DNA of 64,000 nucleotides from Martelella alba (GTDB lineage Bacteria > Pseudomonadota > Alphaproteobacteria > Rhizobiales > Rhizobiaceae): positions 124,001-188,000 of the forward strand of contig NZ_VHLG01000008.1 of the NCBI RefSeq assembly GCF_006516955.1. The letters are read 5' to 3'. Shown here piece after piece: positions 7,153-10,568 of the stretch. The notes beneath the pieces were generated by a model. The model saw only the letters and a program-made list of their open reading frames with translations, searched no databases and was not told where the DNA came from. The position numbers and the translations under genes were made by a program. Position 1 is the stretch's first letter, and each line of letters starts with the position of its first letter.

Positions 7153-8817
7153 TTAGCGATCTCTGAACCGGTTGGTAATCGGGTAACGCCGGTCACGGCC
7201 GAAATTCTTCTTGGTGATTTTCACGCCCGGCGCGGACTGGCGACGCTTGTATTCGGCGATATAGAGCAAATGCTCGATCCGGTGCACGGTCGCCGCGTCA
7301 TGACCGCGCGCGACGATCGCATCAACCGCCATTTCCTTTTCCACCAGGCATTCAAGCATGTCATCAAGCGCCGGATAAGGCGGCAGCGAATCCTGATCGG
7401 TCTGGTTCGGGCGCAATTCAGCAGAGGGTTTCTTATCAATGATATTCTGCGGGATAAGGTTCAGCGCCGGACCTTTCATGCCGTCCAGCTGATGCCTGTT
7501 GCGCCAGTCGGAAATCGAATAGACCTGCATCTTGTAGAGGTCCTTGATCGGGTTGAAGCCGCCATTCATGTCGCCGTAAAGCGTTGCGTAACCGACCGAC
7601 ATTTCCGATTTGTTGCCCGTGGTGACAACCATGAAGCCGAACTTGTTGGAGATCGCCATCAGGATCGTGCCGCGCGTGCGGCTCTGAAGGTTCTCCTCGG
7701 TGATCCCTTCCTCCGTGCCTTCAAACATATCGGAAAGCGTCGCCATGAAACCGGTGACCGGCTCCTCGATCGGCACGATATCGTAGCGGCAGCCAATCGC
7801 CTTCGCACAGTCAGCCGCATCTTTGAGCGAATCATCGGAGGTATAGCGATAGGGCAGCATGACGCAATGCACCCGCTCAGGCCCCAGCGCATCCACCGCC
7901 ATGGCAGCACAGAGCGCAGAATCAATGCCGCCGGAAAGCCCCAGCACCACACCTTTGAAGCCATTTTTATTCACATAGTCACCAAGACCAAGCACACAGG
8001 CGCGGTAGTCAGCCTCCTCGCCCGTCGGGATCGGCGCAAAGCCGCCATTGACGATCTTCCAGCCTTCATCGCCGCGTTGCCATTCCGACATGATGATCTC
8101 TGTGGCAAATTCGCTCGCCTGGAAAGCCAGGGTCCGATCAGTATTGAAGCCGAAGCTGGCGCCGTCATAGACCAGCTCGTCCTGACCGCCGACCGTATTG
8201 AGATAGACCAGCGGCAGCCCCGTCTCGATCACCTGTTTCAGAACCACCTGATGGCGGATATCCACCTTGCCGCGATAATAGGGCGAACCATTGGGTGAAA
8301 GCAGCAGTTCCGCTCCGCTTTCGGCCAGCGTCTCGCAGACACCGAGATCGCCCCAGATATCCTCGCAGATCGGAATACCAATTCGCACACCGCGAAAATT
8401 GACAGGGCCCGGCATCGCTCCCGGAACGAAGACGCGCTTCTCGTCAAACTCACCGTAATTCGGAAGATCGACCTTGTCGCGAATGGCAATGATGGCACCT
8501 CCGTCGAGCACAGCGACCGCATTGTGCCGTCCCGCTTCCCCCTGACGCGGGAAACCGACAATCATGCCCGGGCCGCCATCGGCCGTCAGCGCCGCCAGTT
8601 CTTCAACGCCCTTCAGGCAGGCTGCCAGAAAAGACGGTTTCATCACCAGATCTTCGGGCTGATAACCGGAAATGAAAAGCTCGGTCGAAACAATGAGATC
8701 GGCACCGGCCGCAGCGGCCTTTTCGCGCGCGGCCTTCAGCTTTTCGACATTGCCCGCCACATCCCCGACAGTCGGGTTGAGCTGTGCGAGCGCGATTTTC
8801 ATATGGTCGGTGATCAT
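7153..8817 (-). CDS. nadE: Glutamine-dependent NAD(+) synthetase
   Basis: About 554 residues in two domains. The N-terminal nitrilase-type glutaminase (about 1-250) carries the Glu (STELFISGY), Lys (RDKVDLPNYGEFDEKR) and Cys (GIPICEDIWGD) of the catalytic triad. The C-terminal ATP-pyrophosphatase domain has the loop LGLSGGIDSAL. The enzyme makes NAD from deamido-NAD using glutamine as the nitrogen donor. The ATG at 8815-8817 follows GGGCGA at a normal distance. An ATG 18 bases upstream and one 15 bases downstream (MKIALAQ) are alternatives. It leads a probable two-gene unit with the beta-propeller gene. Confidence 0.96.
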   Translation of the reverse strand: MITDHMKIALAQLNPTVGDVAGNVEKLKAAREKAAAAGADLIVSTELFISGYQPEDLVMKPSFLAACLKGVEELAALTADGGPGMIVGFPRQGEAGRHNAVAVLDGGAIIAIRDKVDLPNYGEFDEKRVFVPGAMPGPVNFRGVRIGIPICEDIWGDLGVCETLAESGAELLLSPNGSPYYRGKVDIRHQVVLKQVIETGLPLVYLNTVGGQDELVYDGASFGFNTDRTLAFQASEFATEIIMSEWQRGDEGWKIVNGGFAPIPTGEEADYRACVLGLGDYVNKNGFKGVVLGLSGGIDSALCAAMAVDALGPERVHCVMLPYRYTSDDSLKDAADCAKAIGCRYDIVPIEEPVTGFMATLSDMFEGTEEGITEENLQSRTRGTILMAISNKFGFMVVTTGNKSEMSVGYATLYGDMNGGFNPIKDLYKMQVYSISDWRNRHQLDGMKGPALNLIPQNIIDKKPSAELRPNQTDQDSLPPYPALDDMLECLVEKEMAVDAIVARGHDAATVHRIEHLLYIAEYKRRQSAPGVKITKKNFGRDRRYPITNRFRDR

Positions 8818-8917
8818 GGCAATGTCGCCCATCATGCAAATTGTTCAAAAAACGGTTCGGCGAACCGATACCATGCACACCATGTTTTGCAATCAAGCTC
8901 AAGCCGCGAAAAGAAAA

Positions 8918-8938
8918 CGGGGCCACAAAGGGCCCCGC
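8918..8938 (-). terminator. Terminator hairpin, copy distal to aroG
   Basis: The core GGGGCCACAAAGGGCCCC forms a 7-bp stem. Read on the minus strand it is followed by TTTTCTTTT. It is an exact 21-bp copy of 9146-9166. In the direction of aroG transcription it comes after the repeat element and carries the T tract. Confidence 0.75.
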
Positions 8939-9145
8939 CAGACTGCAGACAACCCTAGCCCCTTCTCTAACGTCATGCCTGTGCTTGGTCCACAGACATC
9001 CAGCCGACGCGCGTCCGCGCGGCGAAAGAAACTGCCTATTCAGATCTTTAAGACTATGGATCCCCGTGACAAGCACGGGGATGACGACGCAGCGGTGGTT
9101 ATGACCCCCGAACAGACAAGCTGAATGACTTTGTCAACAGTCTGA
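8939..9145 (-). repeat. Terminator-associated repeat element, copy 2 (207 bp)
   Basis: Flanked on both sides by the same 21-bp hairpin sequence (8918-8938 and 9146-9166). It is in the minus orientation, as is the upstream aroG gene. The plus strand reads CAGACTGCAGACAACCC at one end and GACTTTGTCAACAGTCTGA at the other, which are inverted ends. The body contains CGTCATGCCTGTGCTTGG near 8972-8989 and CACGGGGATGACGACG near 9075-9090. It shows the same order of blocks as copies 1, 3 and 4. Confidence 0.85.
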
Positions 9146-9166
9146 CGGGGCCACAAAGGGCCCCGC
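9146..9166 (-). terminator. Terminator hairpin, copy proximal to aroG
   Basis: The core GGGGCCACAAAGGGCCCC lies 22 bases after the aroG stop. On the minus strand it is followed by the repeat element end instead of a T tract. Confidence 0.7.
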
Positions 9167-9188: not shown

Positions 9189-10568
9189 TTACTCGTTGAT
9201 CGCCAGTTTCTTTTCCTCGTAAGCGCTCTTCATCCGCTCGGCCATCAGGAAGGCCAGTTCCAGCGCCTGGTCGGCATTGAGACGCGGATCGCAATGGGTG
9301 TGATAGCGGTCGTGAAGATCGTCGCCGGTCAGCGCCCAGGCGCCACCGGTGCACTCCGTCACATCCTTGCCGGTCATCTCCACATGCACGCCGCCCGGAT
9401 AGGAACCTTCGGACCGGTGGATCTGGAAGAAGGCCTCGACCTCCGCCAGGATACGCTCGAAGGGGCGCGTCTTGTAGGAGTTGAGCGTGATCGTGTTGCC
9501 ATGCATCGGGTCGCAGGACCAGACCACCTTCTTGCCCTCACGCTCGACAGCGCGAATAAGGCGCGGCAGATGTTCAGCAACCTTGTCGTGGCCGAAGCGG
9601 CAGATCAGCGTCAGCCGGCCGGCTTCATTGTCAGGGTTGAGAATATCCGTCAGACGCAGAAGATCGTCTTCAGCAAGCGAGGGACCACATTTCAGCCCGA
9701 TCGGGTTCTTGATGCCGCGGCAATATTCGACATGGGCATGATCGGCCTGGCGCGTGCGGTCGCCGATCCAGATCATGTGGCCGGAGGTGGCATACCAGTC
9801 ACCCGAGGTCGAATCGACGCGTGTCAGCGCTTCTTCATAGCCAAGCAGCAATGCCTCGTGGCTGGTGAAGAAATCGGTTTCGCTCAGCGCATGGTTGGAA
9901 TCGGCGGTAATACCGATCGCCCGCATGAAGGACATGGTTTCCGAAAGGCGATCAGCCAGCTTCTTGTAACGTTCGCCCTGGGGGCTGTCCTTGACGAAGC
10001 CAAGCATCCACTGATGCACATTTTCCAGATTGGCATAGCCACCCATGGAAAAGGCGCGCAGCAGGTTCAGCGTTGCCGCCGACTGGCGATAGGCCATCAG
10101 CTGACGCTGCGGATCGGGAATACGGGCTTCCTCGGTAAAATCGATGCCATTGATGATGTCACCGCGATAGCTCGGCAGCGTCACACCATTGATGGTCTCA
10201 TTCGGATTGGAACGCGGCTTGGCGAACTGTCCGGCAATACGGCCAACCTTAACCACAGGCTGCTGGGCGCCAAAGGTCAGGACAACGGCCATCTGCAAAA
10301 AGGCACGGAAAAAGTCGCGGATCGTGTCCGCGCCATGTTCCGCAAAGCTCTCGGCACAATCGCCGCCCTGCAGCAGAAAGCCCTTGCCCTCGCAGACATT
10401 GGCCAGCGCCGATTTCAGACGGCGGGCCTCGCCGGCAAAGACGAGCGGCGGATATTTCGCAAGCGATGCCTCAGCTTCGGCAAGCTTTTCCTTATCCGGG
10501 TATTCCGGCACCTGCAGAATGGGCTTCTTGCGCCAGCTTCCCGGTGTCCAGTTTGTTGCTCTATCCAT
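9189..10568 (-). CDS. aroG: 3-deoxy-7-phosphoheptulonate synthase, class II
   Basis: A 459-residue class II (plant/Mycobacterium type) DAHP synthase. It joins phosphoenolpyruvate and erythrose-4-phosphate in the first step of the shikimate pathway. Visible family segments are GDCAESF (about residue 68), the [13 protein letters not shown] motif, YRGD, the [10 protein letters not shown] segment, [14 protein letters not shown] and GVHVEMTG. The length matches the family. It is a single gene with its own terminator (hairpin at 9146). A LysR-type gene ends 110 bases upstream of its start on the same strand. Confidence 0.96.

Follow-up and report, generated by a model that had tools for sequence, protein, structure and literature searches.

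Duplication of a whole terminator hairpin as the target site of a 206-bp MITE with IS1182-type ends in Martelella alba

Our central observation is that a 206-bp element lying next to aroG in the window (the whole 64,000-nucleotide stretch of Martelella alba DNA analyzed here) entered a pre-existing terminator, and that its target-site duplication is the entire terminator hairpin; the same is true of dozens of sister copies and of the autonomous ISs that were sampled. The explanation that best accounts for the data jointly, and that we regard as very probable, is that the element is a MITE belonging to a clade of the IS1182 family with CAGACTG ends, that it takes whole hairpins as the targets to be duplicated, and that strand transfer takes place at the feet of a cruciform. 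Hairpin-targeting transposition in the IS1182 family is already known, and duplication of the whole hairpin is a new variant of it. Length and position of the duplication follow DNA structure, and a natural record of this is preserved at dozens of independent sites. The observations suggest how a mobile element can invade terminators without breaking them, and they point to a candidate mobilizer for the CGTC-tagged palindromes of one genome. Compared with the preliminary description of this locus, which was made from the letters of the window, the new elements are the IS1182-type driver, the variation in duplication size and the spread outside the genome.

The genome is a draft of 4.99 Mb in 55 contigs, and the window lies on contig C51. 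Two perfect copies of a 22-nt direct repeat, ACGGGGCCACAAAGGGCCCCGC, are present with a start-to-start spacing of 228, each consisting of the hairpin GGGGCCACAAAGGGCCCC plus two bases per side (Table 1). Between them lies the element, with inverted ends CAGACTG...CAGTCTG. This arrangement had been described beforehand and stands apart from a one-base correction: the element measures 206 bp (8939-9144) instead of 207 bp (8939-9145), and the duplication 22 bp instead of 21 bp. The T tract, TTTTCTTTT (8917-8909, minus strand), follows only the aroG-distal hairpin copy, again as first noted; on the minus strand, the aroG-proximal copy is followed by the element, with no T tract. Both neighboring genes are encoded on the minus strand, aroG with its end at 9189 and the following gene with its start at 8835. 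The two gene names are presumptive, aroG being taken from the preliminary description and from general features of the family, and NAD+ synthase-like from the look of the sequence.

Table 1. Positions in the window of the element, its parts, the duplicated hairpin and the neighboring genes
Feature	Position	Strand	Remarks
Downstream gene, presumably NAD+ synthase-like	7153..8835	-	Open reading frame
Target-site duplication, aroG-distal copy (terminator hairpin)	8917..8938	.	T tract on minus strand; single hairpin here in G005
Non-coding 206-bp MITE with IS1182-type terminal inverted repeats	8939..9144	+	41 genome matches; ends common to autonomous IS
Left terminal inverted repeat, CAGACTGCAGACAAC	8939..8953	+	13/15 against CAGAYTGCTGACAAA
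Inner CGTC-tagged palindrome 1, diverged	8971..9002	+	Read from sequence
Inner CGTC-tagged palindrome 2, CGTCATCCCCGTGCTTGTCACGGGGATCCA	9057..9086	-	C51:133057-133086
Right terminal inverted repeat	9130..9144	-	14/15; listed as C51:133129-133144, minus
Target-site duplication, aroG-proximal copy (hairpin without T tract)	9145..9166	.	
Owner of the targeted terminator, presumably aroG	9189..10568	-	Open reading frame

The 3' flank of aroG was found in all 12 congeners searched. In the closest one (G005, 95% identity) it reads as an A tract, then ACGGGGCCACAAAGGGCCCCG, unrelated bases and aroG; that is, a single hairpin, not two, sits directly at the aroG T tract, and the element is absent. The earlier proposal that a mobile element had duplicated the whole hairpin as its target site is sustained by this empty site and by the sister copies. 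In the other congeners the intergenic sequence has diverged, and a single, different hairpin was recognized by eye in two of them (G003 and G012). Flanks of 14 MITE copies were sought in G005, and 13 had a counterpart there (L002 had none). At eight of these 13 further sites the element is cleanly absent and a single hairpin is present (L003, L007, L008, L009, L010, L014, L016 and L026), and three are filled (L022; L013, with the element inverted; and L024, at a contig edge). The remaining two were not counted as clean: at L029 the element is absent and one hairpin is present, but with about 550 bp of other sequence, and at L006 only one flank aligns. Empty sites were also found for the autonomous ISs, three of the four left flanks tried leading to a related plasmid with an empty site and one hairpin each; for the fourth (L141), an alignment was obtained on just one side. 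As a separate observation, one orthologous site is filled in both congeners with the element in opposite orientations (L013 and L236). Flipping in place and two independent insertions are both possible, the former because the flanking palindromes are direct as well as inverted repeats.

The element has 41 matches in the genome, of which 40 are near full length and one is a fragment. A strict duplication was defined as one immediately outside the inverted repeats that scores at least 12, the score being its length minus 3 per mismatch. It was found in 30 of the 40 near-full copies, nine times without any mismatch, at 30 different hairpin sequences and with lengths of 18 to 30 bp. Given 41 genome matches and a score of 12 or more in 30 of 40 copies, against 0 of 1,560 when flanks were swapped between copies, the flanking duplication is not due to chance. 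Most other copies thus do carry duplicated hairpins, as the preliminary description implied, although over a wider size range than the 20 to 22 bp it had anticipated. Among the ten copies that fail, seven have hairpin pairs that differ by indels or several changes when compared by eye (L012, L015, L018, L027, L029, L030 and L032). Of the other three, L038 is flanked by two unlike hairpins, L019 by a hairpin on its left alone, and L040 gave no strict flanking duplication.

The duplications are centered on the palindromes that they contain. Over 58 MITE and IS sites, the center of the palindrome coincides exactly with that of the duplication in 43, and to within 0.5 nt in 55. When the exact duplications, 30 in number, are read in register, their seven outer bases are self-complementary at 185 of 210 positions (88%), and at only 34 to 65 of 210 (16-31%) when the frame is shifted by 1 to 3 nt. 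With inexact duplications included, the in-register values are 155/210 (74%) for the MITE, 175/196 (89%) for the IS and 87/119 (73%) for sister MITEs of the genus, and shifts of 1 to 2 give 20 to 44%. Duplications range from 17 to 30 bp over MITE, IS and plasmid loci (mean 22.6, s.d. 2.8 at the 58 sites), and they usually extend beyond the GC stem by one or two bases, up to the margin of an A/T tract. Length is correlated with stem size (Spearman 0.67 and Pearson 0.36 for the 58 sites; Pearson 0.60 with a slope of 0.58 for the 30 exact ones), by a stem-edge rule that is crude and blurred because pairing extends inside the A/T tracts. This only moderate correlation counts against a perfect ruler. 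At least three A in the six bases before the hairpin, or at least three T in the six after it, were present at 30/30 MITE, 28/28 IS and 14/17 sister sites, and both together at 16, 19 and 8 sites, respectively; these are raw counts with no control.

The window element has the attributes of a MITE: it is 206 bp long, is devoid of a transposase, shares its ends with an IS, and has many intergenic copies. Among 151 genomes of the family, 41 contain PF13751, the transposase domain of that IS, and the candidate driver was found in other genera only: neither the source genome (as a 55-contig draft) nor G005 gave a PF13751 match at E <= 0.001. Of 30 PF13751 loci inspected, five have the MITE ends on both sides and one (L137) on one side. 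Two of these with whole reading frames, L111 and L112, have exact flanking duplications of 21 and 24 bp; in L110, whose frame is broken, the hairpins on the two sides differ by one base. Two other PF13751 loci (L131 and L132) showed a repeat of about 5 bp, obtained by a generic end search most of whose answers were unconvincing. The transposase belongs to the IS1182 family by NCBIfam model NF033551 (478.1 and 475.9 bits for a cut-off of 270), with PF13751 and PF05598 both present, and the autonomous IS is about 1.53 kb long (mostly 1,512 to 1,542 bp) with matching terminal inverted repeats. This is the organization of IS1182 members, which measure about 1.3 to 1.9 kb and in which a single transposase gene lies between terminal inverted repeats. 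Because PF13751 is missing from the source genome and G005, and because MITE and IS have only some 15 to 18 bp of end sequence in common, it is by inference that we assign mobilization of the MITE in trans to a transposase from the CAGACTG-end clade of the IS1182 family.

A scan of 84,980 species yielded 101 relatives of the transposase, the best 80 of which were kept as 78 loci, from rhizobial and related genera according to their titles. The 39 loci in which both ends were likely to be present were examined, and the other 39 dropped. A strict duplication of 18 to 28 bp flanks 28 of the 39 IS copies, exactly in 21 of them, against 2 of 1,482 in the swapped control; since L180 and L184 are apparently one site assembled twice, these amount to 27 distinct duplication sequences. 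Exact duplications are thus rarer in the MITE (9/30) than in the IS (21/28). The 11 failing copies comprise five in which, by eye, the hairpins on the two sides differ from each other (L143, L146, L158, L181 and L183), two with diverged pairs (L170 and L186), two at contig ends (L153 and L155) and two whose right end was not found (L182 and L191).

Within the genus, the end motif CAGAYTGCTGACAAA is present in 12 of 13 genomes, source genome included, and 40 regions from six congeners contain other short elements with the same ends. These sister MITEs, 96 to 219 bp long, have a strict duplication of 21 to 32 bp at 17 of 42 exact ends, with 1 of 1,718 in the swapped control; the other 25 ends fail, often because no good partner end is present. 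The two palindromes inside the window element are of the CGTC-tagged kind. The pattern CGTCAT-N7-CTTG-N8-ATCCA has 97 matches in the source genome. For at least 86 of these, a listed IS1182-type element or end is no more than 190 bp away, and the windows around these ends and elements represent at most 1.3% of the genome. In the source genome, CGTC palindromes ride in IS1182-type MITEs. The statement is limited to that genome because no hairpin duplication was seen at 24 CGTC palindrome loci in other genomes, taken from the series L043-L069 and lying in 21 cases beyond the genus, and the idea that this palindrome always travels in hairpin-duplicating elements is not supported. The window element thus resembles the CGTC-tagged palindromic repeats (REPs) of Alphaproteobacteria in holding two such palindromes, but those repeats showed no hairpin duplication at these 24 loci and are described, in the part of the source available to us, as having no dedicated transposase (PMC3733652). 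The only Rfam match, to WsnRNA46 (8954-9105, minus strand), is weak, with 26 bits where the gathering score is 65.3; it may be due to a palindrome common to Alphaproteobacteria, and was left unused.

To see how far the behavior extends, plasmid loci were read. A tblastn search of a plasmid collection with the transposase gave 267 records at E <= 1e-100 and 1,040 at 1e-40, and the flanks of 19 loci, hand-picked to span organisms, were inspected. Eleven of the first 12 are flanked by exact hairpin duplications of 17 to 28 bp, in Alphaproteobacteria, Gammaproteobacteria and Bacillota (Rhizobium, Sphingobium, two Aminobacter, Salinivibrio, Vibrio, Providencia, Klebsiella, Alkalihalophilus with an element of the ISBspe1 family, Bacillus subtilis and Brevibacillus), and in the twelfth, from Exiguobacterium, the hairpins on the two sides are not the same. 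In Bacillota the duplicated hairpins are AT-rich and 19 to 20 bp long; as this applies to Bacillus and Alkalihalophilus, the common factor is structure and not GC content. Among the last seven loci, an ISEfa7 copy of E. faecium has an exact, AT-rich hairpin duplication of 23 bp, and the two other Enterococcus loci, also with CAGACTG-type ends, have no hairpin duplication (judged by eye, a hairpin borders L264 on a single side, and L265 has a different one at either end). CAGACTG-type ends are in this way associated with hairpin duplication in 12 of 15 sampled plasmid loci. Three loci about 30% identical to the rhizobial IS1182-type transposase P0002 (L266, L267 and L269) have other ends and repeats of 4 to 6 bp; L268, with indistinct ends, was left out of this comparison. 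The elements annotated ISBspe1 and ISEfa7, which are IS1182-like, have the same ends as the window element, proteins 56% and 40% identical to P0002, and exact hairpin duplications at copies L257 and L263, but they carry a transposase whereas the window element has none. ISfinder gives direct repeats of 0 to 60 bp for IS1182, and hairpin repeats may already be familiar to its curators. Hairpin duplication is not general to the IS1182 family, as indicated by the short repeats of the loci with about 30% identity and of Paracoccus members, for which the portions of the sources at hand give 4-bp repeats (PMC3281130, PMC11578231). One of these, MITEPye1 of Paracoccus yeei, is likewise a MITE with IS1182-type ends, but the direct repeats given for it in the text at our disposal are of 4 bp and not hairpins (PMC11578231).

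The mechanism that we favor would begin with extrusion of the terminator palindrome as a cruciform; strand transfer would then occur at the two 5' feet of the extruded structure, and repair of the gaps after joining would copy the whole palindrome. The duplications made by DDE transposases are as a rule constant, or almost constant, in length; on linear DNA the cut points considered here would be 17 to 30 bp apart with a varying helical phase, unlike those of an ordinary transposase. That relatives of the element in distant bacteria likewise duplicate whole hairpins suggests an enzyme that cuts according to the folded shape of DNA and not its sequence. We infer the cruciform step, a role for supercoiling and movement of the MITE in trans. 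Taken more widely, it seems somewhat probable to us that an IS1182-family DDE clade reaching from rhizobia to Bacillota uses a four-way junction as both target and ruler, with the stagger set by the length of the extruded palindrome. Among the closest precedents is IS1272/TnSha1, whose transposase is of the same family and which targets hairpins, some of them terminators, irrespective of sequence, according to the sections of PMC4923244 and PMC5678879 that we could draw on. There, however, the hairpin is partly deleted or replaced, whereas here it is kept and duplicated whole. In the available text of Wan et al. (PMC5678879), joining by IS1272 takes place at the 3' feet, with loss of the hairpin, and duplication of a whole stem-loop is drawn as a hypothetical pathway b, with no example in that text; the corresponding text of Furi et al. 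(PMC4923244) describes blunt, partial hairpin deletion and reports no duplication. The many natural sites found here fit pathway b, and provide this hypothetical duplication branch with natural examples that agree with it. Cruciform-directed transposition can be tested directly with short synthetic targets.

Other explanations have to be weighed against this one. Tandem terminators exist in bacteria, and an element might have landed between two hairpins that were already there; none of the sites tested here had such a pair, a single hairpin being present at the focal site, at eight of 13 further sites (three being filled, and L029 and L006 uncounted) and at three IS sites. For the tested sites this explanation is refuted, and we give it practically no weight. 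An ordinary stagger fixed at about 22 bp, combined with a mere preference for hairpin-rich DNA, would agree with the narrow length distribution around 22.6 bp and with a length-stem correlation that is only moderate; against it, exact duplications vary from 18 to 28 bp, each remains in register with its own axis (88% versus 16-31% at shifts of 1 to 3 nt), and the AT-rich hairpins of Bacillota, 19 to 20 bp long, act alike. A fixed stagger is accordingly quite improbable.

It is just as improbable, in our judgment, that another transposase, one recognizing similar ends, mobilizes the MITE, the link to IS1182 being a coincidence. The lack of IS1182-type domain matches in the source genome and G005, and the restriction of common sequence to the terminal 15 to 18 bp, speak for this possibility, but MITE and IS have in common both their ends and the unusual duplication of a whole hairpin. 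The most serious contender, although still unlikely, is that the hairpin is recognized in single-stranded DNA or in a transcription bubble and not in a double-stranded cruciform. The targets resemble transcription terminators, so that hairpins may be favored during transcription or replication, and A- or T-rich hexamers flank all 30 MITE and all 28 IS sites, in counts that have no control. A symmetric duplication, however, needs both strands to be cut at matching feet, which a cruciform would give directly.

As for the host, aroG still meets a hairpin followed by a T tract, now 228 bp further on. With a full hairpin-plus-tract terminator kept beyond the element, the insertion should be nearly neutral for termination, and the arrangement suggests little loss of aroG termination. 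Such a small cost would help explain why there are many old copies, the MITE duplications being exact in only 9 of 30 cases compared with 21 of 28 for the IS. If the four-way junction reading is true, termination would be preserved for the neighbors, and the element would be wrapped between two hairpins.

Two minor observations concern composite structures. In congener G007, two regions of 1.37 kb with MITE ends (L098:929-2301 and L101:964-2331), tried as autonomous parents, were rejected: they contain a nearly identical inner sequence, an element which we take to be IS110-like from its ORF, inserted in the inner palindrome of two different MITEs, and the window element is thus not an IS110 member with a DEDD transposase as its own enzyme. 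Finally, different hairpins on the two sides were seen by eye in IS copies L143, L146, L158, L181, L183, L259 and L265; this is as expected if two IS copies recombined, and such copies could mark old rearrangements.
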